Assembly: GCF_000473895.1 (NCBI RefSeq)
Contig: NZ_ASSJ01000047.1
Location: 1-64,000 of the forward strand
Length of the DNA: 64,000 bases
Direction of reading: 5' to 3'
Source: Rubidibacter lacunae KORDI 51-2
GTDB lineage: Bacteria; Cyanobacteriota; Cyanobacteriia; Cyanobacteriales; Rubidibacteraceae
Of this stretch, positions 2,216 to 64,000 are shown piece by piece. The notes beneath the pieces are model-generated. The model ran no database searches. It was not told where the DNA came from and worked only from the letters and a program-made list of their open reading frames with translations. Every line of letters starts with the position of its first letter. Within the stretch, counting starts at the first letter, position 1. The translations under genes and the position numbers were made by a program.

Positions 2216-2387
2216 GGGGTCGGTAGTGTCTCGCTTGCGTGCGTTATTGATGGCAATAAAAGTCCAATTTTTATAATAGCGAATTGAGCCGAGCCTTTAC
2301 GTACTGCTTGCTCGGACCTCGCGCTCCTGCCTGCACGCTCGTTCTATCTCACCCTGGGTCGCTGCGCTAAGCGTTCGGGTGTTATCC

Positions 2388-3239
2388 CTACGGTAGGATG
2401 GCACCTTCGAGGTTTGCACCTCTAAAGTCGGCACGCTTGAAGTGACCTTCCACTAAGCGCGCACCGACCAAGTTCGCTCCCCTGAGATTGGCATCGCGAA
2501 AACTGGTTCCAGCCAGGTTGGCTGCTGCCAACACGGCCTCTTGCAAGTCGGCACCTGCTAAATTTGCTTGGGACAGATTCGCTCCGCGCAGATCGGCTCC
2601 TTTCATCTGCGTTCCTGCCAAAGTTGCACTGGCAAGGTTCGCGAAGGCCAGATTTGCTTCCTTCAACTGGGCTCCAGACAGATCGGCTGTATCGAGCTGC
2701 GCCCGTTGAAGGTTTGCACGCGCCAGATTGGCTCGGCGCAAATCGGTTGCGCTCAATGTTGCCTCGCTTAGGTTTGCTCCGTGTAGGTAGATGGCTTCGA
2801 GGTCGGCTCCGGGCATGTCCACGCCCTGCAGCGAAACGCCGCCTTCGTTTAGATCTTGCAGTGCTTGCACGCGCGCGTAACTCGTCGGCACACCAGCAGC
2901 GGCAGCATGGTCGATGACTTGCCAGGCTTCGTAGTATTTGCGCTTGCGGCGATCGCGCGCCTCGATAGCATACAGAAAGGCGACGACGATAATACTAAAA
3001 CTCTCAAGGTTTTCGACGGCAACCAATGCTCCTATATTGCGAGCTGTGCACCCGAGAAAACCCCGACAGTTCGGCTCCGGCGGTGGCAACAGGCGATCGA
3101 CACGATCGACCCCAATCAGTACGATATAAGCCGCAACAAGCACAAATAAGACTCGCAGCGGTAGCGAGCGGTCCAGCGATCGCACCACCACCTGACAACC
3201 TCGTCCGACCTTGGCTTTCAATTTGCTTATTGCCGCCAT
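2388..3239 (-). CDS. membrane-anchored pentapeptide-repeat protein
   Basis: A 283-residue protein with a basic N-terminus, a membrane segment at about residues 28-45 (VLFVLVAAYIVLIGV), a second hydrophobic segment at about 69-92, and a cytosolic linker starting RDRRKRKYYEAWQVID. From about residue 135 to the end it is an uninterrupted run of A(D/N)Lxx pentapeptides (GANLSEATL, RANLARANL and so on), which should fold as a right-handed quadrilateral beta-helix. The linker plus repeat arrangement is common in cyanobacteria; the repeats are thought to be protein-interaction platforms, and no precise role can be assigned. The repeat ends exactly at the stop, so it looks complete. Confidence 0.85.
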   Translation of the reverse strand: MAAISKLKAKVGRGCQVVVRSLDRSLPLRVLFVLVAAYIVLIGVDRVDRLLPPPEPNCRGFLGCTARNIGALVAVENLESFSIIVVAFLYAIEARDRRKRKYYEAWQVIDHAAAAGVPTSYARVQALQDLNEGGVSLQGVDMPGADLEAIYLHGANLSEATLSATDLRRANLARANLQRAQLDTADLSGAQLKEANLAFANLASATLAGTQMKGADLRGANLSQANLAGADLQEAVLAAANLAGTSFRDANLRGANLVGARLVEGHFKRADFRGANLEGAILP

Positions 3240-3356
3240 CTCTAGGATCCCTAGGAAAGCTCCGCGCTCCTAATAAATTGAGGCTAGCGGAACGGTCGAG
3301 TTCACGCTCGGATTGGGTCTGCCGATTGGATGAACCTATTGTCGGGGCGCGTGCAT

Positions 3357-3995
3357 CTATTCGTGGCGGGTGGTGGCGCGATCGCGTCCGATCGAGCTTT
3401 CCATCGCAGCGAGCACCGCTCTCGAAGCCGCAATGATGTCGCGTTCTTCGCCACCGAGATAAAGTCGACCGAAACTACCTACAGCCGACACTTGCAGGAT
3501 GTTAATCAATGCAGCTTTTTCGGCTTCGTTCGCCGCTAGTGCCGCATAGGCTGCCGGCTCTACTTCGAAAACATAGAGCGTTTGACCGGCAAGCAACATC
3601 TGACCGCGGCGGGTGCGGTTGACAAGTTGGGCTTGGTGCGAGTCGATGTTGCGGATGATCTGGCTTGACACGACGCGGGGTTTGAGTCCGTCGCCCCGGC
3701 TGGCACCCAAAGCATCTAAAATCGCGTGCCCGGCCGTGCGCACCTCCCCTTGGCTTGACGAATGAATTTCAAGCAGCCCGTATAGGCGCTCGACCACCTG
3801 CACGCCCGGCCGCACGGATGTTGATTTCAGCGCCACATCTGTAATGCGGTTGATTTCGATGCCGGGCGAGATTTCAACCCATAGCGATGCGTCGCCCGGA
3901 AGTGGGAGGAAGCCGATGGACACCGTGCCCATGTAGGCAGCATGCTGCGGTTGCAAATTATCGAGATAGACGTAGCTGCGAAGGTCGATCCCCAA
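3357..3995 (-). CDS. ccmP: tandem-BMC carboxysome shell protein CcmP
   Basis: A 212-residue tandem bacterial-microcompartment-domain protein. Such proteins form a trimeric, stacked shell tile with a large gated pore that may admit metabolites such as RuBP and 3-PGA. The two BMC halves are visible: residues about 1-100 ([37 protein letters not shown]) and about 105-205 ([50 protein letters not shown]). Length and these motifs match the CcmP family I know from Synechococcus PCC 7942, as opposed to CcmO, whose halves are closer to CcmK. No other ccm gene is nearby, so this is a satellite carboxysome locus. ATG at 3993-3995. Confidence 0.88.
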
Positions 3996-4159
3996 AGCCC
4001 GATGCTCTCCACGACGAACCGGGTAGTCGCGCGACTGCCCCTGCTAACCTTAACCCGGCTCGACCGGCTTTGAGCCGATCGATTCTGAACAGCGAGACCA
4101 GCTGGCAGATCCGATTCACAGATCCGTCTCGCAGATTCGACTCTACCGATTGCCGAATC

Positions 4160-4516
4160 CTAGCGCGCGGCGGCAGCCTTGCCGCCTGGCGTCCAAGCGA
4201 CGCGATCGCTCTCGCCCCAGAAGCCTTCGTACTTAGTGACGCGCACGTCGCCGAGAACCTTGGTTTGACAGGTAAGGCGCAAGCCGCGCTCGCGATTGTG
4301 TGGCGGCATTCCCAAACGCGCTTGTTCGCGCCATGCAGATTCCGAAACGTCGCCTTCGACCCATGCCGCACAGGTGCCGCAGGTGCCGAAACCGTGACAG
4401 TTAATTTGCTGCGCCGGTCCGTTATAGATGTCGATGTTATTCTCGAGCAAAACCTGACGCAGGTTTGCCCCGCGATCGCAAGCTACGACCTTCCCTTGAG
4501 CTGTTACCGTAGGCAT
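4160..4516 (-). CDS. 2Fe-2S ferredoxin-like protein
   Basis: A 118-residue single-domain 2Fe-2S protein, presumably a soluble electron carrier. The cluster ligands are visible in CHGFGTCGTC followed by a distant LTCQTKV cysteine, the CX5CX2C...C spacing of ferredoxins related to the adrenodoxin/Isc or cyanobacterial FdxE-like group. It is not the typical photosynthetic PetF, which has CX4CX2C. The start is placed at ATG 4514-4516 (MPTVTAQGK); an upstream in-frame codon at 4534 would add six non-conserved residues. It is divergent from cimA with 71 bases between starts, so the two promoters are in close contact. The physiological partner is unknown. Confidence 0.82.
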   Translation of the reverse strand: MPTVTAQGKVVACDRGANLRQVLLENNIDIYNGPAQQINCHGFGTCGTCAAWVEGDVSESAWREQARLGMPPHNRERGLRLTCQTKVLGDVRVTKYEGFWGESDRVAWTPGGKAAAAR

Positions 4517-4587
4517 TAGCAATCCGCTCCGCACGATACATTTCTTAACAAGAATTTAAAATCCGGTACGGCATCCGTCCTCACTCT

Positions 4588-6213
4588 ATGGCTGCAGATT
4601 CTTCTCCTCGCGTCTGGCTGTACGACACGACACTGCGCGATGGCGCACAGCGTGAAGGTATTGCGTTTTCAATAGAAGACAAGATCGAAATCGCCCACAA
4701 GCTGGACGCGCTAGGGATTCCGTTTATCGAGGGCGGCTGGCCGGGGGCGAATCCGAAAGACGTGCAGTTTTTTTGGCAGCTCCGAGAAGAGCCCCTACAA
4801 CAAGCCGAGATCGTGGCATTTTGCTCTACGCGCCGCCCGCACAAAGTTGCGGCAGACGATCCAATGTTGCAGGCAATCCTCGCTGCTGGAACCCGCTGGG
4901 TAACTCTTTTCGGGAAAACCTGGGATTTGCACGTCACTGAAGGACTGAAGACGACGCTCGATGAAAATCTGGCGATGATCCGCGACTCGATTCAGTATTT
5001 GCGGAGCCAAGGTCGCCACGTACTTTACGATGCCGAGCACGGTTTCGACGGCTACAAAGCCAATCCTGAATACGCATTGCAAACTTTGCGAGCGGCACAG
5101 GATGCCGGCGCAGATTGGTTGGTCTTGTGCGACACCAACGGCGGTACACTCCCCCAAGACATTGCCCGCATCGTCCGCGAGATCGTGGCGGAGTTGGGCC
5201 GCGATCTCACCGCGCAGATCGGCATCCACGCCCACAATGACTCGGGAACGGCAGTCGCAAATTCCTTGGCGGCAGTTCTGGAAGGTGCGGCGATGGTGCA
5301 GGGCACGATCAACGGCTACGGCGAACGCTGTGGGAACGTCGACCTATGTTCCGTGTTGCCCAATCTGCAGATAAAGCTCGGGTACGACTGCTTGCCGTCC
5401 GATCGCCTGGCACTGCTGAGTACGACCAGCCGCGCGATTGCGGAAATTGCCAACCTTGCTCCAGACGATCACGCACCGTTTGTAGGTCAGTCGGCGTTTG
5501 CCCACAAAGGCGGCATTCACGTTTCGGCTGTGGAGCGCAATCCCCTGACCTACGAGCACGTGCCGCCCGAAGCGATCGGCAACCAGCGGCGTATTGTGAT
5601 TTCCGAGCAGGCCGGCATCAGCAATATCGTCGCCAAGGCGCGCTCGTTCGGCATCCAGCTCGATAAAAAAGATCCGGCTTGTCGAGAGATCTTGCAAACG
5701 CTCAAAGACCTAGAGCATCGCGGCTATCAGTTTGAAGTGGCCGATGCAAGTTTCGAACTGTTGGTCCGAGCAGCCCTCGAACGCCGGCCGGAGCGCTTTC
5801 AATTGATGGGTTTTCAGGTGCACTGCGATATGTTGCGCGATGAAAAAACGCTGCTGAGCGACGCGATCGCCACGATTAAAGTCGCGGTTGACGGCGAGCA
5901 CATCCTCGAATCGGCAGAAGGCAACGGTCCGGTGTCGGCATTGGATGAAGCGTTGCGGAAGGCATTGGTGAAGTTTTACCCGGAAATCGCATCGTTCCAC
6001 CTCACCGATTACAAAGTCCGCATCCTCGACAGCACGGTTGGCACGGAAGCAGTGACGCGCGTGCTGGTCGAATCGAGCGACGGGGCACGGCGCTGGACGA
6101 CGATTGGCGTCTCGCCGAACATTCTGTCTGCATCCTATCAAGCCGTGGTGGACGGCATCGAGTACGGGCTGCTGCTCCAGTCCTCAGCTCGATCGGCTGC
6201 ATCGGTTGGATAG
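4588..6213 (+). CDS. cimA: citramalate synthase
   Basis: Condenses pyruvate with acetyl-CoA to (R)-citramalate, the first step of the threonine-independent isoleucine route. The 541-residue product has the DRE-TIM metallolyase start LYDTTLRDGAQREGIAFS (catalytic Arg 17, metal Asp 18), the metal site HAHNDSGTAVANS, the INGYGERCGNVDL block, and a C-terminal LeuA dimerisation/allosteric domain from about residue 390. It resembles the CimA/LeuA2 branch rather than true LeuA: LYDTTLRDGAQ with an early GWPGANPKD segment, and total length about 540. It probably supports isoleucine synthesis together with the usual ilv/leu genes elsewhere. Feedback inhibition through the C-terminal domain is likely from the family. 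The stop is followed by 270 bases without a recognisable gene. Confidence 0.9.
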   Translation: MAADSSPRVWLYDTTLRDGAQREGIAFSIEDKIEIAHKLDALGIPFIEGGWPGANPKDVQFFWQLREEPLQQAEIVAFCSTRRPHKVAADDPMLQAILAAGTRWVTLFGKTWDLHVTEGLKTTLDENLAMIRDSIQYLRSQGRHVLYDAEHGFDGYKANPEYALQTLRAAQDAGADWLVLCDTNGGTLPQDIARIVREIVAELGRDLTAQIGIHAHNDSGTAVANSLAAVLEGAAMVQGTINGYGERCGNVDLCSVLPNLQIKLGYDCLPSDRLALLSTTSRAIAEIANLAPDDHAPFVGQSAFAHKGGIHVSAVERNPLTYEHVPPEAIGNQRRIVISEQAGISNIVAKARSFGIQLDKKDPACREILQTLKDLEHRGYQFEVADASFELLVRAALERRPERFQLMGFQVHCDMLRDEKTLLSDAIATIKVAVDGEHILESAEGNGPVSALDEALRKALVKFYPEIASFHLTDYKVRILDSTVGTEAVTRVLVESSDGARRWTTIGVSPNILSASYQAVVDGIEYGLLLQSSARSAASVG

Positions 6214-6482
6214 TTCTCGTCCACCAGAGCTCACTGACTCGAACCGCGACCGACTGAAAAATGGTTCGAGCTGCGATCGGCTTTGTCATAAACTCTTCGG
6301 ATGTCTTCGAGCAGTGCGCAGCTGTCTTCTCTGCCACAAAAGTAGCCAGAATTGCCAAAGCAGTCGCGAATCCCAAGCGTCCCCTCAACAACTTTCGCAA
6401 AAACAATCGTTTGGTTATGCAGTTCCCCTGCCAAGCGATAGAGTTTTTCATCGCGCGCGGAAGTGCTATTTATCTTGAGGGA

Positions 6483-8939
6483 ATGGCGTCACAGTTCTTC
6501 ATAATGGGGACAAGCATTGCAATACCCCCCTTGATCCAAGCAGAAACCCTCAACTTGTTGGAGTGGCCGCGACTGTGTCAGCAGCTGGCTACTTTTGCCG
6601 CAACGAAGCTTGGTGCGATCGCCGCCCACCGCCTGCAGCCGCCCGACTCTCTGGCTGTCAGCTCGACATTGCTGGCTCAAACGCGCGAGGTCGTGGGTCT
6701 CGAAATTGGCTTGGTCGGTGCTTGGACGTTTGACGGGATCGAAGACATTGGCGATGCTCTCGAGCGCAGCGATCGCGGCGGCATGCTAAGCGGCAAGGAA
6801 CTGCTGGCGATCGCGACGACGCTAGCCGGAGTCAGGCGGTTGCGGCGTGCGATTGACGAGCGTGAAGAAGAAGTGCCGACCTTGGCAGCATTGGTCGCCA
6901 GCGCGCGGACCTATCCCGAACTCGAACAGGACATCCACCACTGTATCGACGAGCAGGGCAACGTCACCGATCGCGCCAGTTCCAAACTTGCCGACCTCCG
7001 CCATCAGATCAAGCAAACTCGCGATCGCATCTACCAAACCCTGCAGCGTTTGTTGCAGCGCTACGGCAACGCCGTTCAGCAGCCGACGATTACCCAGCGC
7101 GAGGGGCGCTTTGTTATCCCGGTTAAAGCCCCACAGAAAGACGCGATCCCCGGTATCGTCCACGATGCCTCCAGTTCCGGCGCAACGCTGTACGTAGAAC
7201 CCCAGGCTATCGTCGACTCCGGCAACCGCCTGCGCCAGCTGCAACGCCGCGAACTCGTCGAAGTTGAAGCCGTCTTGCGCGCCCTCAGTGAAAAAGTCGC
7301 CGCAGTCCGTGAAGATTTGGAAGCACTACTGGCGATCGCCACGGCGCTCGATCTAGCAACCGCCCGCGCGCGTTACAGCTTGTGGTTGGAGGCTAACGAA
7401 CCCCACTTCATCGACTGCAGCGCTGGCGAAACAACCACCCTGCGGGGTCTGCGCCATCCGCTTTTGGTCTGGCAACAGCGCCACGAGCAAGGGCATCCTG
7501 TCGTTCCGACCGACGTACAAGTGCGATCGCCGATCCGCGTCGTAGCAATTACCGGACCGAATACGGGCGGAAAAACCGTGACGCTGAAAACCATTGGGCT
7601 TGCCGCATTGATGGCTAAAGTCGGATTATTCGTCCCTGCCCGCGAACCCGTCGAGTTGCCGTGGTTCGATCGCATTTTGGCTGACATCGGCGACGAGCAA
7701 TCCATCGAGCAAAGTTTGTCCACGTTCTCCGGGCACGTGCGCCGCATCGCCCGCATCCTGGACGAGTTGCACGAGCGCGACCCCGATCGACCGGCATTAG
7801 TGCTGCTCGACGAAGTGGGTGCGGGGACCGATCCGGCTGAAGGCAGCGCACTGGCGATCGCGTTGCTGCAATACCTCGCAGCTCGCGTACAACTAACGAT
7901 CGCCACGACGCACTACGGCGAACTCAAGGCGCTGAAGTATCAAGACGAACGCTTCGAGAATGCCTCGGTGGAGTTCGACGAGGCAACGCTCTCGCCCACC
8001 TACCGTTTACTGTGGGGAATTCCCGGACGCTCCAATGCGCTGACCATCGCTCAGCGACTCGGGCTCGACGCCGCGATCGTCGAGCGCGCGCGCAACCAGC
8101 TCGGCGGGTTGTCCCAAGACGTGAACAAAACAATCGCTGGATTGGAAGCTCAACGCCGGCAACAAGAAGACAAAGCTCGCGAAGCCGGAGACTTATTGCG
8201 CCAAGCCGAGCGATTTTATCGAGAAGTTAGCGATCGCGCTGCTGCCCTGCAAGCTCGCGAGGACGACCTCAAGCGCCGTCAAGAACAAACCGTCGGGGAA
8301 GCGATCGCCGAAGCCAAAGGTGAAATTGCCCGCGTCATTCGCCAACTTCAACAAGGTCCGCAAACCGCTCAAAACGCTCAAAAGGCTTCCGAAGCCGTTG
8401 CTGGCGTCAGCGAGCGCTACCGACCGGAGCGGACCAAACCCGTCCGCAAACCGAGCTACAAACCCCAAATTGGCGAGCGCGTGCGCGTCCCGCGCCTGAA
8501 CCAAACTGCCGAAGTGCTCTCCCAACCCGACGCCGATGGCGAATTGACCGTGCGCTTCGGGTTAATGAAAATGACCGTGCCGCTCTCGGACATAGAATCC
8601 CTTGACGGGAAGAAAGCTGAAATGCCCGCGAAAGCAACGAAGTTTGCCGCTCCAGTCGAAAGCCCGACGGCGGCAAAACCCCTGCCCACCGTTCGCACCG
8701 AGCGCAACACTCTGGACGTCCGAGGCAGCCGCGTTGCCGATGCCGAACTCGCGATCGACCGCGCCCTCGCCGACCAAGTGACGCGATCGGGCGCGCTCTG
8801 GATAATCCATGGCAAAGGAACGGGTCGCTTGCGCCAAGGCATCCAAGCATATTTGCAGCACCACGGACTTGTGAAGTCGTACGAACTGGCAGCGCAGCAA
8901 GACGGCGGTGCAGGGGTTACGGTTGCATACTTGCAATAA
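6483..8939 (+). CDS. mutS2: MutS2-type ATPase/endonuclease
   Basis: A MutS paralogue lacking the mismatch-reading domain. In the family it has been linked to suppression of homologous recombination and to resolving collided ribosomes. Visible: core/clamp region to about residue 330 (counted from 6483), Walker A GPNTGGKTVTLKT, Walker B/signature LLDEVGAGTDPAEGSA, THYGELKALKY, a long coiled coil after the ATPase, and a C-terminal Smr nuclease domain (LDVRGSRVADAELAIDRAL, then WIIHGKGTGRLRQG). I chose ATG 6483 because GAGG lies just upstream and conserved residues (QAETLNLLEWPRLCQQLA) begin soon after; ATG 6504 is equally possible. The open frame continues upstream to 6261 but that part has no family resemblance. 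Confidence 0.92.
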   Translation: MASQFFIMGTSIAIPPLIQAETLNLLEWPRLCQQLATFAATKLGAIAAHRLQPPDSLAVSSTLLAQTREVVGLEIGLVGAWTFDGIEDIGDALERSDRGGMLSGKELLAIATTLAGVRRLRRAIDEREEEVPTLAALVASARTYPELEQDIHHCIDEQGNVTDRASSKLADLRHQIKQTRDRIYQTLQRLLQRYGNAVQQPTITQREGRFVIPVKAPQKDAIPGIVHDASSSGATLYVEPQAIVDSGNRLRQLQRRELVEVEAVLRALSEKVAAVREDLEALLAIATALDLATARARYSLWLEANEPHFIDCSAGETTTLRGLRHPLLVWQQRHEQGHPVVPTDVQVRSPIRVVAITGPNTGGKTVTLKTIGLAALMAKVGLFVPAREPVELPWFDRILADIGDEQSIEQSLSTFSGHVRRIARILDELHERDPDRPALVLLDEVGAGTDPAEGSALAIALLQYLAARVQLTIATTHYGELKALKYQDERFENASVEFDEATLSPTYRLLWGIPGRSNALTIAQRLGLDAAIVERARNQLGGLSQDVNKTIAGLEAQRRQQEDKAREAGDLLRQAERFYREVSDRAAALQAREDDLKRRQEQTVGEAIAEAKGEIARVIRQLQQGPQTAQNAQKASEAVAGVSERYRPERTKPVRKPSYKPQIGERVRVPRLNQTAEVLSQPDADGELTVRFGLMKMTVPLSDIESLDGKKAEMPAKATKFAAPVESPTAAKPLPTVRTERNTLDVRGSRVADAELAIDRALADQVTRSGALWIIHGKGTGRLRQGIQAYLQHHGLVKSYELAAQQDGGAGVTVAYLQ

Positions 8940-9462
8940 ATCCAACGCTTGAGCAAGTTGCAGGTGTTGAAAGCTAGCACTTGGGAGCAAAATTGTATGA
9001 AATTTTGCGCGACTGCTGCCTGTTTTACGCCTAGCAACTAAACGTTTCAAACCCTTGCCAGCGTTTCGGGTTGCAGCGAGATCGCAATCCGCTTTGCCCC
9101 CGCATCGATCGCGTTTTCGGTCAACTCGCGCTCTGCCGCCGCTTGCGAAGCGTTGACTTCCCCAGCAGCAATGCAATCGAACTCATCGCGCAGAAGCGGT
9201 CGGTAGGGAGGAGGAGATGTCGTCAAGGTGGTGAAGGTAAAGGGTGATGCTCTGTTGCGACGGGTGGCGCGCTCAACGGACCGGCGTCTATGTTTATCGT
9301 TCGCGATCGCGTCAAAATCACGCATGCAAGGGGTTGTACGGTGCTTAACAAGATGCTTCACGTATTGTTAAACTTCTTGTCAGTCGCGCTAGGAGCGCTT
9401 AAGGCGGGTGATAGCATCGCGATTACACGCAATTGCGAACACCCGACTTTCGAGAAACCGAT
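8940..9462. other. intergenic region around the mutL fragment
   Basis: Between mutS2 and psaD. Apart from the mutL-like remnant on the minus strand (9050-9214) I see no coding region. The last 100 bases (about 9360-9462) must hold the psaD promoter and leader, but no convincing -35/-10 pair stands out. Confidence 0.5.
9050..9214 (-). pseudogene. fragment of mutL (N-terminal GHKL ATPase region)
   Basis: On the minus strand the frame reads IAAGEVNASQAAAEREL followed by TENAIDAGAKRIAISLQPE, closely matching the start of the MutL GHKL ATPase (IAAGEV...RELVENAIDAGAT.I). The catalytic region 'ELVENAIDAGA' is recognisable, with the Val of ELVEN replaced by Thr. The match covers about 55 residues and stops at a TGA right after ETLARV, where MutL would continue with the ATP-lid motifs. 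The normal N-terminus is also missing, because upstream codons show no MutL similarity. The fragment sits next to mutS2. A functional mutL is presumably elsewhere. Confidence 0.72.
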
Positions 9463-9891
9463 ATGAGCGAAGAGCTGACGGGACAACTCCCTAAATTCGG
9501 CGGCAGCACGGGCGGCTTGCTTACGGCTGCAGAAACGGAAGAAAAGTACGTTATCACCTGGACCAGCAGTAAAGAGCAGGTCTTCGAGATGCCTACGGGC
9601 GGCGCGGCGATTATGAACCAGGGCGAGAACATTTGTTACTTCGCCCGCAAAGAGCAGTGCCTTGCACTCGGGACCCAGCTGCGCACCAAGTTCAAGCCGA
9701 AGATCGAAAGCTACAAAATCTGGCGCGTCTATGCCAACGGCGAAACTGAATATCTGCATCCCAAAGATGGCGTTTTCCCCGAAACCGTCAACGAAGGACG
9801 ACCCTTCGCAGGCAAGAACGACCGCCGCATCGGTGCTAACCCCGAGCCGGCAGCGCTGAAGTTCTCGGGCAAGGCTTCCTACGAAGTCTAG
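9463..9891 (+). CDS. psaD: photosystem I subunit II (ferredoxin-docking protein)
   Basis: Stromal/cytosolic extrinsic subunit of photosystem I. It forms the ferredoxin docking site and stabilises PsaC. The 142-residue product begins [20 protein letters not shown] and carries [37 protein letters not shown] and [18 protein letters not shown], and ends [10 protein letters not shown], all diagnostic. The ATG at 9463 gives the standard cyanobacterial length; upstream in-frame codons to 9433 are not conserved. trpE follows 188 bases downstream on the same strand, an arrangement I recall from Synechocystis (psaD-trpE). Confidence 0.98.
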
Positions 9892-10079
9892 ACCCTTGCA
9901 CGGCAGCACGTCATTCGGTTCGTGCCACCAAAAACGTTCGAAGATTCCCAACGATTTCCGTACGATGGGGAGAGCGAATGGCCGCAGTTACGCGGTTGTC
10001 GCCTCCCCATCGTCATATCGACCGATGCCGATTGCCTGTGCGCGATCGCGTTTTGGTTGCCTTACCGCACGTCCGAACT

Positions 10080-11609
10080 ATGAGCGCCGTCTTTCCTGAC
10101 TTCGACCGCTTCTGCGACCTCGCCCGCGACGGCAATTTCGTTCCGGTGTACCGCGAGCTTGTCGCCGACCTGGAAACACCAGTTTCGGCGTGGTATAAAG
10201 TCTGCGCCGGTCAGCCTTACAGCTTTTTACTCGAATCGGTTGAAGGCGGCGAACAGGTCGGGCGCTACAGTTTCCTCGGTTGCGATCCGGCCTGGGTGTT
10301 GCAAACCGATGGCGATCGGACCACGCGTACCTACCGCAACGGCAGCCAAGAAACCTTCACGGGCAACCCCTTCGACATCCTCGCTGGCTGCCTGGAGACG
10401 ATTGCGCCGGTCCATTTACCGGAGCTACCGTCGGGGATTGGCGGGCTGTTTGGTTTTTGGGGTTACGAGCTGATCCGCTGGATCGAACCGCGCGTGCCGG
10501 TCTATTCAGCGCAGCCAGAGGACTTGCCCGACGGCATCTGGATGCAGGCGGACAACTTACTGGTGTTCGACCAAGTCAAGCGCAAAATCTGGGCGATCGC
10601 TTACGCGGATCTGCGCGATACGGATTTACAAACGGCTTACAACCGCGCGGCCGCGCGCGCTAGTTTGCTGGCTCGGAAACTCCAGTCGCCGCTGCCCGAA
10701 GACGCGATCGCCTTGAGTTGGTCCGAGACGGATGCGCGCGATGGAGAGACCCTCGTCTATGACAGCAATACGCCGCGATCGCAGTTCTGCGCCAATGTTG
10801 AAACGGCCAAAGCTTATATCCGCGCGGGGGACATCTTCCAAGTTGTGTTGTCGCAACGTCTGTCAGCACACTACGCGGGCAAGCCCTTCGAGCTGTATCG
10901 CGCCTTACGCGTCATCAACCCGTCGCCTTACATGGGCTTCTATCAATTTGGCGACTGGCAGCTCGTCGGCTCGTCGCCAGAAGTGATGGTGAAAGCCGAG
11001 CACGATGCAGCGGGCAATCGCGTTGCTACCCTACGCCCGATCGCTGGTACCCGGCCGCGCGGCCGCACTCCGGCCGAAGATGCCGACTTCGCTACGGAAT
11101 TGTTGTCGGATCCAAAGGAAGTAGCCGAACACGTGATGCTCGTGGACTTAGGACGCAACGACCTCGGCCGGGTCTGCAAACTCGGAAGCGTGCGCGTGAA
11201 CGAGCGCATGACCATCGAGCGCTACTCTCATGTGATGCATATCGTCAGCAACGTCATCGGCGACCTCGACCCGAATCACACGACATGGGACTTGCTGCAA
11301 GCGACGTTCCCGGCCGGTACGGTCAGCGGCGCGCCCAAGATTCGTGCGATGGAGATTATCCACGAACTCGAGCCCGAGCGTCGCGGTCCTTATTCCGGTG
11401 CCTACGGCTACTACGACTTCACCGGTCAGCTCAACAGCGCGATCGCTATCCGCACCGCGATCGTCCGCCCTGAAGGCAGAGCCCACCGCGTCTACGTCCA
11501 AGCTGGAGCGGGCTTGGTAGCGGATTCCGTCCCCGAACGCGAGTACGAGGAAACCCTCAACAAGGCACGCGGCTTGCTCGAAGCTATGCGCCGACTGCAG
11601 CGCGGATAA
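10080..11609 (+). CDS. trpE: anthranilate synthase component I
   Basis: Converts chorismate and glutamine-derived ammonia (from TrpG) to anthranilate, the first committed step of tryptophan synthesis. The 509-residue product has the LLES feedback motif (YSFLLESVEGG) in the N-terminal domain, followed by the chorismate-binding domain: FQVVLSQRLSA, PSPYMGFYQFGDWQLVGSSPE, LRPIAGTRPRGRTP, EHVMLVDLGRNDLGRV, GTVSGAPKIRAMEII and VQAGAGLVADSVPEREYEE. The start is ATG 10080 (MSAVFPDFDRF). A longer frame back to 9978 exists but has no family support. It lies downstream of psaD and may be partly cotranscribed. Confidence 0.95.
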   Translation: MSAVFPDFDRFCDLARDGNFVPVYRELVADLETPVSAWYKVCAGQPYSFLLESVEGGEQVGRYSFLGCDPAWVLQTDGDRTTRTYRNGSQETFTGNPFDILAGCLETIAPVHLPELPSGIGGLFGFWGYELIRWIEPRVPVYSAQPEDLPDGIWMQADNLLVFDQVKRKIWAIAYADLRDTDLQTAYNRAAARASLLARKLQSPLPEDAIALSWSETDARDGETLVYDSNTPRSQFCANVETAKAYIRAGDIFQVVLSQRLSAHYAGKPFELYRALRVINPSPYMGFYQFGDWQLVGSSPEVMVKAEHDAAGNRVATLRPIAGTRPRGRTPAEDADFATELLSDPKEVAEHVMLVDLGRNDLGRVCKLGSVRVNERMTIERYSHVMHIVSNVIGDLDPNHTTWDLLQATFPAGTVSGAPKIRAMEIIHELEPERRGPYSGAYGYYDFTGQLNSAIAIRTAIVRPEGRAHRVYVQAGAGLVADSVPEREYEETLNKARGLLEAMRRLQRG

Positions 11610-13402: not shown

Positions 13403-15436
13403 CTACTTCAAAGCACCTTCTATTTTTACGATCTCCAATCTATTAAGACTCACCATATTCGAAAATTTTAGCAGACGATCGCCATCTATCCAACCAATGC
13501 TTAGGTAATAGTGCCCTGAAGGTATACTGTCGGGAATATCGAGATGTTGGATATCTTGTATAGTCGTTCCAGGCATAACTCTTTCCGGGGATAAGTAACC
13601 GCCGACTAACGGCGAATCCATGCGGTATACTACTTCCCCAGAGCGGTCTCGGAGTTCCAGGCGAATAAGAGCATTTGCTGGAAGCGGCGAAGCAAAGCGC
13701 CAGTAGAGTGTGACCGGAATTCGATTGTTGCTTTTGTCAACCTCGAAGAGGCTGGGACCGTAGCCGATTAATTCTACTTGCGTTCCCAAAGAAACGGCGG
13801 GTCGGACAGCCAGAGATTCCAGTCGGTCGGATGTGGGAACCGGCCCTGGATAGACAAGCGCATAGTTGATGCCATCAAACCGAACCGTATAAACAGGTTT
13901 TTGACTACTAATGTACGCGAGCAAGTCTGGGTCGGGAAGCTGTCGTTGTAGTTGATTTTGATAAAGAACAATATAATTAACGTTTAGCCAAAACGCATCT
14001 TCTAAGTAGAACCTATTGATTTCAGAGGTACGTCCGCGGAAATAGGTCGCCAGAGCATCTCGATACCAACTCGCGACAAGGATCTCCTTTGAATCGGGCT
14101 GATTGTTTAACCACCCAGCAACCTTCTCCAAACCTTCTCCCTGACCGATCGTCAAGATATTTTGAGCGGTTCGGGCACCGCCGAATACAGGGTTGAAAAA
14201 GGTGATATTGTAAGGAGATAAATAGGTAGTGAATGCAAGTTGGACTGCCAAAATTGTACCCAGGATCGCCGACTGGAATGTTTGCCCAATACTTTGCACC
14301 AAAATAGACCAACCCGTACCAGCTAGCAAAGCGAGTTCTGGGGTGACGAAATGAATATAGCGATCGATCTTACTGTCTGGTATGCTCATCAACACCAACA
14401 CCCAAAACGGCACGAGAGCAATCGCATATACCTCCACAAAATTTGGAACTTTCTTGCGCAGAGGTACGAATATCAGACAAATTAAACAGATTAATATACC
14501 TATTTGTAAAACGGGAGAAAGGCGATAAATTAGAACCAATGGGTAGAAGAGAGGGTTGGGGGCATCAGTTGTGTGTCCGAAAAAAAATAGAGAGCCGCGA
14601 TCGGCTTCATCTAGCAAGTCGGTTAAGAGGTTTTTTATGACCGATAGAGGGCGAACCCAAGTCGCCGGCCAGATTGCAATGACCGTTACTAGCCCGGTTG
14701 CTCCCCAAAAACTGAGCTCGCGGCATCTTTGTTGCCATCCAATTGTTGGAAATCTCGGTTCTAATTTGCCTTGCTCGATAAGAATCAACCAATGGATAAC
14801 CGCTGGTAATGCAAATAAAGCCGTAATCTTTGTAGCTACGGCAAGCCCAGCGAAAGTGCCGGAGATGAGGAGAGCTCGCCGAGTGCGATCGCCGCGCAGA
14901 TAAAGCAAGAGCATCAACAGTGCGAGGATACTGAAGCTGGCTTGTAAGGCATCCGTGCTGATATATCGTTGATATGCGACGAAAAATGGTTCGGTAACTA
15001 GTAAGCCGGTCCCAATCAAGGCTGGAAGGGGTCCGATAAGTTGTCGTGCTAGCACGTGCATGCCAACTAAGCATGTTGAAGTAACGAATGCTTGGAGTAG
15101 GCGCGGTGCAATATAGATACCGATCTCCGGTTCGTCGATGTTCAGACAAGAGCTAATGTGGGCTAATAACTCTGGATGGTGCCAATCCGCAAAAAATCTT
15201 TCTAGCCAACAACTACCGAGTAAACTAATGCCAATACTCCAACTATTTGTCACACCTGGATGGTGAGAAATGTATGTCTTTGCAAACTCCAAATTGATGA
15301 TGCTGTTGAGGAAGAATGCTCCTCTTTCGATCCACTTTACCTCGTCGATATTGAGCGGGATCTCAATTTCATTAAGGCGTAATCCAAGCGAGATCGAAAA
15401 AATTGCAGTAGACAAGAGTAATGATTTAAACTTCAT
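13403..15436 (-). CDS. GT39-like membrane glycosyltransferase
   Basis: A 677-residue polytopic membrane protein of the PMT/ArnT (GT-C fold) type, which transfers sugars from polyprenyl-phosphate donors at the outer face of the plasma membrane. The N-terminal TM helix is followed by a loop with IPLNIDEVKWIERG, where D31-E32 correspond to the catalytic acidic pair of GT39 enzymes. About ten further hydrophobic segments extend to about residue 430 (for example LALLAGTGWSILVQSI). The C-terminal part (about 440-677) is soluble and carries a beta-rich domain (VPVTLYWRFASPL-like segment near residue 590). AT content is somewhat higher than in neighbouring genes, and it stands alone. Substrate unknown. 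Confidence 0.72.
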   Translation of the reverse strand: MKFKSLLLSTAIFSISLGLRLNEIEIPLNIDEVKWIERGAFFLNSIINLEFAKTYISHHPGVTNSWSIGISLLGSCWLERFFADWHHPELLAHISSCLNIDEPEIGIYIAPRLLQAFVTSTCLVGMHVLARQLIGPLPALIGTGLLVTEPFFVAYQRYISTDALQASFSILALLMLLLYLRGDRTRRALLISGTFAGLAVATKITALFALPAVIHWLILIEQGKLEPRFPTIGWQQRCRELSFWGATGLVTVIAIWPATWVRPLSVIKNLLTDLLDEADRGSLFFFGHTTDAPNPLFYPLVLIYRLSPVLQIGILICLICLIFVPLRKKVPNFVEVYAIALVPFWVLVLMSIPDSKIDRYIHFVTPELALLAGTGWSILVQSIGQTFQSAILGTILAVQLAFTTYLSPYNITFFNPVFGGARTAQNILTIGQGEGLEKVAGWLNNQPDSKEILVASWYRDALATYFRGRTSEINRFYLEDAFWLNVNYIVLYQNQLQRQLPDPDLLAYISSQKPVYTVRFDGINYALVYPGPVPTSDRLESLAVRPAVSLGTQVELIGYGPSLFEVDKSNNRIPVTLYWRFASPLPANALIRLELRDRSGEVVYRMDSPLVGGYLSPERVMPGTTIQDIQHLDIPDSIPSGHYYLSIGWIDGDRLLKFSNMVSLNRLEIVKIEGALK

Positions 15437-62016: not shown

Positions 62017-63021
62017 TTAGAGGTCCAGCGGACTGCGTACGCCCATTCCCCCTCGGTTGAGGACGTGGGTGTAAATCATCGTGGTTTTGACATCTTTGTG
62101 ACCGAGGAGTTCTTGGACCGTGCGGATGTCGTAGCCGGTCTGCAGCAGGTGGGTGGCAAAGCTGTGGCGTAAGGTGTGGCAGCTGACTCGCTTGGGGATT
62201 TCGGCTTGGCGGGCGGCAGTCTTGAGCGATCGCTGCAGGACACTGTCGTCGAGGTGGTGTCGCCGCACTTCGTTGCTGCGCGGGTCGATTGTCCGTCGCT
62301 TGGCGGGGAAGGCGTATTGCCAAATCCATGCCTGCGGAGCGTTTGGGTATTTGCGCGCCAGGGCGTGGGGCAAGTAGACAGCTCCGAAGCCTTGGGCGAG
62401 GTCGTCAGCATGCAGTTGCTTGACTTGGACCAGGTGCGCTTGCAGCAGCTCGGTCAGGCTGTCGGGCAGGATGGTGAGGCGATCGCGGTTGCCCTTGGCG
62501 TCGCGCACGACGATTTGCGTTTGGGCGAAGTCGATATCTTTCACGCGCAGGCGCAGGGCTTCTTTAACTCGCAAGCCGGAGCCATAAAGGAGCTTGGCAA
62601 GGAGTTGGTGAGTGCCGCTTAGGCACTGCAGCAAGCGTCGCGTTTCGTCGACCGACAGGACGGTGGGGAGGTGCTTGGATTGTCTGGCGCGAACGGAGTC
62701 AATGGCGTCGTCGGTCAGGGGTTGTTTGAGGACGTGGCGATAGAGAAAGAGCAGGGCGCTAAGGGCTTGATTCTGGGTCGAGGCGGAGACGTTACCTACG
62801 ACGGCGAGGTGGGTCAGAAATGCTTCGACTTCGGGCGCGCCTATGTCTTTGGGATGGCGTTTGCCGTGGAAGATGATGAAGCGGCGAATCCACTGCAGGT
62901 ATGTTTCTTCAGTGCGGTAGGCGTAGTGCTTGACGCGCCGGGTGTCGCGGAAGCGATCGAGCAGCTTGGGGGGCTTGGTGGCGGAGTCGGTCCTGGCTAG
63001 TGGCAAATGGCGATACCCCAA
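62017..63021 (-). CDS. intI: integron integrase (IntI-type tyrosine recombinase)
   Basis: A 334-residue site-specific tyrosine recombinase. N-terminal SAM-like domain ([21 protein letters not shown]) and catalytic domain with [14 protein letters not shown] (Arg 151), [13 protein letters not shown] (His 282, Arg 285), LGHKDVKTT (His 308) and TTMIYTHV (Tyr 317). The insertion [19 protein letters not shown] plus [18 protein letters not shown] (about 209-257) is the IntI-specific patch that separates integron integrases from XerC/D. It ends [16 protein letters not shown], also typical of IntI. No ATG is available; TTG 63021 or TTG 63006 must serve. The gene reads away from the promoter and cassette at 63276-64000, the normal integron layout. 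Confidence 0.93.
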
Positions 63022-63050
63022 GTCTATACGGGATAAATGCAGCCTAAGTA
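63021..63050. repeat. 30-base direct repeat, copy A
   Basis: AGTCTATACGGGATAAATGC followed by AGCCTAAGTA. Copy B at 63156-63185 matches in 27 of 30 positions (differences at positions 12-14). The two are 135 bases apart, and weaker similarity (GCTAGAA) continues about 20 bases beyond. Copy A starts at the intI 5' end. Confidence 0.9.
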
Positions 63051-63155
63051 ACTCGCGATCGCGCAGCTAGAATGGTTGCGAAATCTATGCTGTAGGGGGC
63101 TCGCGCTTGGCGAAGTTAGTTTCTAAATCCGCTATTGGTGAAGGGTGGTGACCAG

Positions 63156-63185
63156 AGTCTATACGGAGCAAATGCAGCCTAAGTA
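63156..63185. repeat. 30-base direct repeat, copy B
   Basis: Second copy of the repeat at the intI 5' end (see copy A at 63021-63050). Read on the minus strand both copies contain CTTAGGC, one base from the integron core site GTTAGGC at 63475. Confidence 0.9.
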
Positions 63186-63278
63186 CAGCGAAATCGGGCT
63201 GCTAGAAGGCTAGAGTTCATATCCCACAAAGGATTTGCAGTTTACGATATCGGTTTCTATATCCGCATCATGCAGGAA

Positions 63279-63307
63279 TTGACATCTAGACATGTGCATG
63301 CTAAATT
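63279..63307 (+). promoter_or_regulatory. candidate integron cassette promoter (Pc)
   Basis: -35 TTGACA (63279-63284, consensus), 17-base spacer, -10 TAAATT (63302-63307). It points toward the TIR-GTPase ORF and away from intI, the position and orientation expected of Pc. The start of transcription would be near 63314 and the leader about 170 bases to the ORF. Confidence 0.65.
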
Positions 63308-63474
63308 CTAAATAATATTAGTATCTTTGGCTCACAGCGATGGGGAAACTCTTGCTCAGGAGAGGCTTTAGGCTCCGGAATGAGCACTAATTATATTTAT
63401 CATGGTATCTTATCTGGCATATATATCTCGTGATAGTATCCTCAGTTTTAGAGCAGCAATAAAATTTTCTTACA

Positions 63475-63481
63475 GTTAGGC
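63475..63481 (+). other. candidate attI/cassette junction core site GTTAGGC
   Basis: GTTAGGC fits the integron core consensus GTTRRRY; recombination occurs between G and TT. It lies 454 bases from the intI start and only 2 bases before the TIR-GTPase start codon. This is the position expected for the first cassette boundary. No L-box partner with confident match is seen upstream, so assignment is tentative. Confidence 0.55.
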
Positions 63482-63482
63482 T

Positions 63483-64000
63483 ATGAGAGTTTTTGTAAGC
63501 TACTCCTCATCCGATCAAAGTCACGTCAATGATGTTGAGCAAGTCTTGAAGACTGTTGGAGTTGAATATTTTCTTGACAAGCGAGATATGCACTGGGGAG
63601 ATGATATTTCTGCAAGAATAGTGACAGAAATATTGTCCTCTGATGCGTTGCTTGTCTTAGTTTCTCAGTCTAGCTTAAAATCACCTTGGGTACAATTTGA
63701 AATTGGTGCTGCTTCCGGGATGGACAAACAGATTCTTCCTTTTCTTGCTGAAGGAGATCTGGATGTTCCCGATTACATTCGGCAATATCACTATGCAACT
63801 AACCTCGACGATATAGCCAAATATTTCTCGGATCTAAAAGACGATGAGTCTAACTCCGATGGATGGACAGAGGAACAATTTTCGCGCTTCCAAGAGATCA
63901 AAGAACAAATAAAGTTCACAGATAAGTGGAGATTTACATTCTTAATGACTGGAAGGACGGGAGTAGGGAAATCTAGTACTATCAATTCTCTAATGGGTGA
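63483..64000 (+). CDS. TIR-domain/GTPase protein, 3' end beyond window
   Basis: Partial gene, 172 full codons visible and no stop in the window. N-terminal TIR domain (about 1-115): MRVFVSYSSSDQSHVNDVEQ, then FLDKRDMHWGDDISARIV, SSDALLVLVSQSSLKSPWV, QFEIGAASGMDKQILPFLAE. Glu 73 in the SPWVQFE block is at the position of the catalytic NADase Glu of TIR domains. A charged helical linker follows (about 116-148), then a P-loop GTPase domain starting RFTFLMTGRTGVGKSSTINS (Walker A, 157-165). Such a pairing suggests a GTPase sensor or assembly module coupled to NAD hydrolysis. No SD; ATG 63483 follows the core site directly. Base composition is much more AT-rich than the genome. Confidence 0.85.
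   Translation, partial: MRVFVSYSSSDQSHVNDVEQVLKTVGVEYFLDKRDMHWGDDISARIVTEILSSDALLVLVSQSSLKSPWVQFEIGAASGMDKQILPFLAEGDLDVPDYIRQYHYATNLDDIAKYFSDLKDDESNSDGWTEEQFSRFQEIKEQIKFTDKWRFTFLMTGRTGVGKSSTINSLMG

Follow-up and report, generated by a model that had tools for sequence, protein, structure and literature searches.

A TIR–AIG1 GTPase fusion beside a cyanobacterial integron looks like a predicted GTP-switched bacterial immune sensor

Introduction

At its right-hand edge, the stretch of DNA analysed here (the window: 64,000 nucleotides, positions 1-64000 of contig C47 in a 4.15-Mb genome of 99 contigs) carries an open reading frame that starts with an ATG at position 63483 of the forward strand and is still open, after 172 residues, where the window ends. 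The original prediction read this frame as a TIR domain joined to a P-loop GTPase, carried as an integron cassette and acting against phages. What does the complete gene encode, how did it come to stand here and could it serve immunity? The observation behind the prediction is confirmed, and its interpretation is partly supported. As judged from its sequence, the protein looks like a predicted GTP-switched bacterial immune sensor, and we favour, with moderate confidence, a single-gene TIR effector that would act as a putative GTP-gated NADase in abortive infection. Contig numbering beyond the window carries on from that of the window, and positions in the extended locus L009 equal window positions minus 61999.

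Results

A complete TIR–AIG1 gene of foreign composition

Instead of stopping shortly past the window edge, the frame, of which 63483..64000 (+) lies in the window, runs on in the same contig to a full-length gene of 422 codons and a stop (63483-64751; L009:1484-2752). A Pfam search with the 422-residue protein placed both TIR_2 and AIG1 above their cut-offs, such that the predicted union of a TIR domain and a P-loop GTPase in a single ORF holds for the entire gene. The AT-richness and the lack of HIP1 sites that had caught attention were borne out as well. HIP1 density is a cyanobacterial mark; the ORF contains 0 HIP1 sites as compared to 2.16 per kb in the window, and its G+C content is 39.0% as compared to 55.8% window-wide. 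The gene is of foreign composition. That the host is a cyanobacterium follows from the HIP1 density and from four relatives in genomes of its order, each with a protein identical to one from a named cyanobacterium (L014 to L058, L018 to L036, L019 to L043 and L022 to L057).

The TIR domain retains the invariant glutamate

The TIR domain comprises residues 3-106 (63489..63800, +) and matched TIR_2 at 8.5e-19 in the full protein (68.7 bits vs a cut-off of 28) and at 1.9e-19 in the window part alone. The ThsB_TIR family also exceeded its cut-off (31.4 vs 21.2 bits), but TIR_2 was the best match. A S-P-W-V-Q-F-E block, residues 67-73, ends in E73 (63699-63701). When we aligned 30 TIR rows, consisting of 28 stretches from loci of 13 other genomes, the query and the AAA-TIR protein of the same array, E73 was the sole invariant column (30/30), while S6 was conserved in 25/30 and D11 in 26/30 rows; since the stretches had been picked up through their similarity to the query, the search itself favours such conservation. 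S6 and D11 had themselves appeared invariant with 15 of the 28 stretches, a status that was gone with all 28. The best matches of a TIR profile built from 17 stretches (A2) were 7uxr, 7uwg and the NAD+ hydrolase AbTIR (9.1e-27), aligned through the W-x-x-x-E block, whose glutamate is catalytic in AbTIR. E73 thus falls opposite the TIR glutamate, as had been claimed. Among 292 genomes of the phylum, the nearest TIR shared 38% identity over residues 2-87. A structural model of the window part (128 residues, one sequence) reached a pLDDT of 64.5, was unreliable and was set aside. Foldseek found no counterpart for this model at E <= 0.001 and listed unrelated synthetases at the top; the TIR fold assignment rests on sequence.

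The GTPase domain is kin to the Toc34 import receptors

Within the window, the second domain is represented by its start (63939..64000, +), including the P-loop residues K163 and S164, whereas the domain as a whole (residues 153-294) reaches contig position 64364 and its residue R245 lies past the window. AIG1 scored just 0.0024 in the window part and 1.9e-20 in the full protein (73.5 bits vs a cut-off of 27). The GTPase claim therefore needed sequence past the window edge, and with it the guess made from the P-loop proved right. The closest solved sequences of the query were Toc34 and Toc33 (2.2e-14), followed by GIMAP7 (2.6e-7), and the top NCBIfam matches were Toc86/159 (TIGR00993, 3.4e-21) and Toc34 (TIGR00991, 1.1e-18). 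The scores lie far below the curated family cut-offs (67.4 of 421.55 bits for TIGR00991, 75.2 of 660.7 bits for TIGR00993), and we therefore regard the query as kin of Toc34 and Toc86/159, not as a member. A profile built from 34 bacterial relatives matched Toc33/Toc34 with up to 117.8 bits vs 70.4 bits for GIMAP7. For L026, the closest relative, AlphaFold modelled the C-terminal part with 34 sequences (pLDDT 82.7); in a Foldseek search, Toc33/Toc34 chains took rows 1-15 (4.4e-15), with GIMAP2 in row 16 (1.2e-9).

An alignment of 51 rows, the query and 50 relatives, revealed that K163, S164, T185, D204, P206 and G207 are conserved in 50/51 rows, L062 having a gap there, and that T274 is likewise conserved in 50/51. 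R245 had seemed invariant with 36/50 relatives; with all 50 it is conserved in 49/51 rows (K in L016, T in L072), and this lack of universality counts against the favoured effector reading. In the sequence alignment, R245 stands opposite R133 of pea Toc34, the arginine finger of the homodimer, whose replacement lowered the dimer share of one construct from 40.7% in the wild type to 16.3% in R133A (PMC12973003, partial text). An R finger of this kind is treated as a probable ancestral feature of the septins, of Toc34/Toc159 and of AIG1/GIMAP (PMC11238149, partial text). With regard to the C-terminal tail, the greatest mean hydropathy was 0.06 in the query, -0.19 in L026 and 0.23 in L027, and 1.25, 1.74 and 1.81 in L016, L018 and L052, respectively. 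The helical moment was much the same in most of these 6 tails and failed to separate the groups (query 0.59, hydrophobic-tailed L052 0.61), which counts against the favoured reading; its p values carry a bias, as the best segment had been selected first.

Relatives share the GTPase and differ in their N-termini

The original prediction had called for homologues combining a TIR domain and a GTPase. Relatives of the GTPase part were found, but a second TIR + AIG1 fusion was seen neither in a scan of 115 loci that include overlaps and repeats (ORFs of at least 90 residues, both parts at the thresholds used), nor in overlapping sets of 60 related genomes and 386 genomes of the phylum. The full-protein query matched its own genome and 2 others in the former set and its own and 9 others in the latter, with at most 4 candidates scored per genome; in the phylum of L027, 1/201 genomes matched, being that of L027 itself. 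Apart from the query's own gene, none of the matches in the 60-, 386- and 201-genome searches starts before residue 109. Five genomes chosen for having a match all matched (5/5), and in two of them, G415 and G417, the TIR-like match and the GTPase are on separate contigs. Used as a single query, the whole protein found no relative in genome contigs or viral contigs. No close homologue of the whole protein emerged from these searches, which, like its long branch, counts against the effector reading that we favour. The GTPase family alignment retrieved at least 78 loci, many remote (best 80 of 94), from genome contigs and one remote locus from viral contigs; the TIR alignment found none in viral contigs, the phage search found none and the plasmid search yielded a single match, to the GTPase part only, in Calothrix.

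A tree of 37 rows grouped the query with L026 (99/88) and the chloroflexotal L027 (100/94). Two Scytonema proteins branched beside them (96/85), and the 26 remaining cyanobacterial rows lay elsewhere, though the branch of the query is long (0.9). A single GTPase clade thus carries differing N-termini, namely a TIR domain in the query and LRR-Roc-COR in L026 (L026:828-4499), a 1224-residue LRR-Roc-COR-AIG1 protein from an acidobacterium (Blastocatellia bin). Two different types of GTPase switch are combined in the L026 protein. Another relative, L029, has an acyl-carrier-like stretch at its N-terminus. A second, shorter AIG1-type ORF lies beside the first in 15/92 loci, and the query is without one. 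Such tandem pairs of a long and a short gene (L016, L017, L031, L032, L037-L041, L044, L046, L050, L051, L056 and L065) recall the Toc34/Toc159 pairing.

In line with the remark that no characterised system is known to have this exact arrangement, no paper on a fusion of TIR with AIG, GTPase or GIMAP was found in the literature searched, which was mostly without subscription papers. The fusion is undescribed in the available portions of PMC7159879, PMC8195603, PMC13064858 and PMC11249213, and the main text of PMC13092281 contains none of TIR, GTPase, AIG1, GIMAP or integron as whole words.

The gene follows an integron platform

There is an integron beside the TIR–GTPase gene. Divergent from the cassette genes, an integrase gene, intI, encodes 334 residues (62017..63021, -) and matched TIGR02249 at 1.9e-140 (467.7 bits vs a cut-off of 265), in addition to Phage_integrase and a SAM-like domain; intI is present in 16/292 genomes of the phylum, the query's own included. 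Adjoining it, the attI/leader platform (63001..63395, +) contains two direct copies of a 72-nt repeat (63001-63072 and 63136-63207, 74%). Over 419 bp it shares 85% identity with the second platform of the genome, on contig C36, a likeness that stops at window position 63395, past which C36 continues into GCTAGGC and an ORF-less element. Position 63395 is the edge between the platform and the variable part. A promoter-like TTGACA-17-TAAATT with a TG before the second hexamer (63279..63307, +) points toward the cassettes as a candidate Pc. The C36 platform has TTGATA and TAAATT in the equivalent position, and such promoter-like matches are not above chance (2 vs 1.4 expected).

As predicted, the ORF stands directly behind a core site, GTTAGGC at 63475..63481 (+), located 1 nt upstream of its ATG. 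This heptamer alone means little, because its 6 occurrences in the whole window are close to the 5.15 expected. On the + strand of the 19-kb stretch from intI on there are 7 copies, as compared to an expected 1.11, and on the - strand there are 3. Upstream of the core site there is no hairpin (96/200 shuffles reach it), as for attI. The 79 bp between the end of the platform likeness and the core site (63396-63474) count against the favoured effector reading.

Regarding attC hairpins, 4 of the 12 places scored on L009 (6298-6388, 14078-14166, 14269-14354 and 14915-14989) were reached by 0/200 shuffles each, and by 0, 1, 0 and 0 of 100 shuffles in a second scoring. The L009 places starting at 4493 and 4689 were middling (52 and 64 of 200; 4 and 2 of 100), and 6487-6577 was weak (97/200; 14/100), in contrast to the strong hairpin of its close copy at 14269. 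Among the 9 places scored on L010, one was reached by 0/200 and one by 2/200 shuffles. An active attC behind the TIR–GTPase gene, expected by eye, was unsupported by free folding and by anchored and free-spacer complementarity. Of the attC predicted there, the core site GTTAGGC is present, but the hairpin (L009:2955-3043; contig 64954-65042) is not significant, being reached by 147/200 and 30/100 shuffles. The proposal of an integron cassette accordingly stands with respect to integrase and platform and is borne out in part with respect to an attC directly behind the gene; the gene, in first position behind the platform, is a candidate mobile cassette. A non-significant attC place and a broken first gene in the next cassette suggest that the array is possibly decaying at its start, which counts against the favoured effector reading.

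Two further features of these arrays are worth recording. The C36 locus (L010, ~2350-10490) contains, besides the second platform, a truncated intI (Pfam match over 3-85 of 172) and small cassette-like ORFs, one of them glyoxalase-like by eye. Moreover, an ORF-less element of ~200 bp lies between cassettes at L009:4564-4771 and 6367-6574 (87% alike), with a whole copy on L010 after the attI core and its attC-like end again at L009:14269-14354; it is perhaps an empty or promoter cassette.

The downstream genes are of defence type

A defence-type context is found downstream, with a caspase-like and an AAA-TIR gene by PADLOC and HsdR and HsdS by Pfam. The Pfam search took in six neighbours, all on one side except intI, and the PADLOC neighbour search took in intI, the caspase-like and the AAA-TIR gene. 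From contig position 65084, the first gene downstream is a stop-broken TIR gene, ThsB-like by eye. It is followed by the caspase-like gene (65508-66482; Peptidase_C14 5.4e-20; PADLOC caspase 1.6e-24), which shows GHG and DSCHSG motifs by eye. Together, the broken ThsB-like TIR and the caspase-like gene (L009:3085-4483) may be what is left of a type IV Thoeris-like pair. Further on, the 496-residue AAA-TIR gene (66795-68285; L009:4796-6286; PADLOC PDC-S59 2.6e-19) encodes an AAA ATPase with a C-terminal TIR, that is, a second TIR–NTPase fusion with reversed domain order, and the first of the strong attC sites lies 3' of it (68297-68387). HsdR, HsdS and an AAA_13 gene follow at 68721-74381 (Pfam), and an HsdM-like frame, seen by eye, extends to about 76018. 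These type I restriction genes, with AAA_13 after HsdS (L009:6722-14016 on), lie among attC sites and are large for a cassette. G+C contents are 38.2% in the TIR–GTPase cassette, 38.1% in the caspase cassette, 48.9% in AAA-TIR and 55.4% in the restriction genes, with HIP1 counts of 0, 0, 0 and 6, respectively.

This order of genes suggests an alternative, which we consider unlikely, in which the TIR domain would make a cyclic ADP-ribose signal for the caspase-like protease of the next cassette, replacing the broken ThsB-like TIR in a GTP-gated type IV Thoeris-like pair. The caspase-like protease of type IV Thoeris is turned on by N7-cADPR, and the genes of that system share one operon (PMC12847820, partial text). 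Here, the caspase-like gene begins 0.76 kb downstream on the same strand, and the TIR gene immediately before it is the stop-broken one; yet a core site separates the caspase-like gene from the TIR–GTPase gene, and the best match of the query is TIR_2, not ThsB_TIR. Moreover, the broken gene reached 0.027 with ThsB_TIR, below cut-off, with nothing from PADLOC, and the caspase-like protein is nearest an EACC1-associated kind, itself below cut-off (96.5/140 bits).

Discussion

A putative GTP-gated NADase

In the reading that we favour, a single-gene effector, we infer membrane contact, GTP gating, NAD+ cleavage, a phage trigger and abortive infection. At rest, the TIR–AIG1 protein would be in one nucleotide state, perhaps held at a membrane via a C-terminal tail that is basic and amphipathic. 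A cue from the phage, be it a ligand, a membrane change or a nucleotide shift, would alter the GTPase dimer or oligomer through contact across the nucleotide face, with R245 taking part. This rearrangement would gather the TIR domains into a composite active site with E73, which might then hydrolyse or cyclise NAD+ and thereby stop the cell before phage release. In the simplest view, the Toc34-like domain would oligomerise the TIR domain via nucleotide-governed dimerisation. There is precedent for such an arrangement, as oligomerising added domains turn on the TIR NADase in STING-TIR, SAVED-TIR, Pycsar, SARM1 and NLRs (PMC12847820, partial text). The state that switches the protein may be the reverse of the one usually assumed, given that GDP favours the Toc34 dimer and GTP analogues loosen it (PMC12973003, partial text).

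The kinship with import receptors, the nearest solved GTPases, might instead point to a TIR domain serving as scaffold, not enzyme, for a GTPase that acts in membrane traffic, in stress or in cell death and has no link to phages. We judge this quite unlikely, considering the conserved E73 and a foreign composition and place behind an integron platform that speak against housekeeping. Distinctly improbable, too, is a silent or decaying passenger, captured and unused: the missing significant attC, the broken gene adjoining and the long branch would fit, but 422 codons are open, the GTPase motifs and the TIR glutamate are intact and the gene is first behind the platform's promoter-like site. Very unlikely, finally, is an Eleos-like GTPase that remodels membranes in defence with the TIR as mere adaptor. 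In its favour, PADLOC matched the query to LeoBC (5.6e-8, residues 115-258), and 6/6 relatives put through PADLOC matched LeoBC or LeoA. Against it, the match of the query covers 148/601 profile positions only, a weak and partial G-domain likeness to Eleos (LeoA/LeoBC), and no Leo protein is among the three neighbours searched by PADLOC.

A wider role for the GTPase family

Many oligomerising partners are known to switch on TIR enzymes; if the GTP gating of the favoured effector holds, the Toc34/GIMAP-type GTPase would add another type of switch, and the finding would tie bacterial immunity to the Toc34/GIMAP GTPase family. Going beyond this, the protein could be the first of a GTP-gated class of TIR immune receptors, in which a bacterial Toc34-like GTPase is a portable, membrane-linked switch that takes various N-termini (TIR; acidobacterial LRR-Roc-COR) and is the ancestor of Toc34/Toc159 and of plant and animal AIG1/GIMAP, a proposal that we regard as conceivable, though doubtful. 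The origin of the family is described as an open question in a 2026 paper that cites earlier reports of its absence from prokaryotes (PMC12845241, partial text), while AIG GTPases were considered ultimately bacterial by Kaur 2021 (PMC8195603, partial text). The relatives in 9 other genomes of the 386 in the phylum bear on the reported prokaryotic absence. By profile and modelled fold, the bacterial AIG1 family (alignment A5) is nearer Toc33/Toc34 than the GIMAPs, which bears on the origin of chloroplast import receptors. With respect to the genomic setting, integrons have been described as stores of defence genes (Darracq 2025, as cited in PMC13064858, partial text), an idea that would extend to a cyanobacterium if the defence role is true.

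Comparison with known systems

Thoeris pairs the TIR protein ThsB with an effector of ThsA type in a single operon. The locus of the query differs from it in that the six Pfam-searched neighbours are without SIR2, macro and SLOG families; a type IV pairing with the caspase-like gene is the unlikely alternative considered above. AIG-subfamily GTPases occur as effectors in a predicted bacterial conflict system, the iSTAND ternary systems (Kaur 2020, PMC7159879, partial text). The query shares such a GTPase with the iSTAND/MoxR-vWA ternary systems but lacks vWA, MoxR and iSTAND genes among the same six neighbours. GIMAP/AIG1 immune GTPases are paraseptins with an R finger (PMC11238149, partial text); the query matches Pfam AIG1 above cut-off and is less alike in sequence to GIMAP than to Toc34. 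With Toc33/Toc34 (and Toc159), the likeness lies in the G domain and is the best by sequence, by family profile and by the modelled fold of L026, with R245 aligned to R133. Whereas Toc34 has one membrane helix (PMC12973003, partial text), the query's tail is without a hydrophobic transmembrane-like stretch, and the query is a bacterial protein with an N-terminal TIR domain encoded beside an integron. What it has in common with the TIR NADases AbTIR, SpbK, Cat1, SAVED-TIR and Thoeris ThsB is a TIR domain with its glutamate and a potentially oligomerising fused domain; in contrast to all of these, the partner domain of the query is a GTPase.
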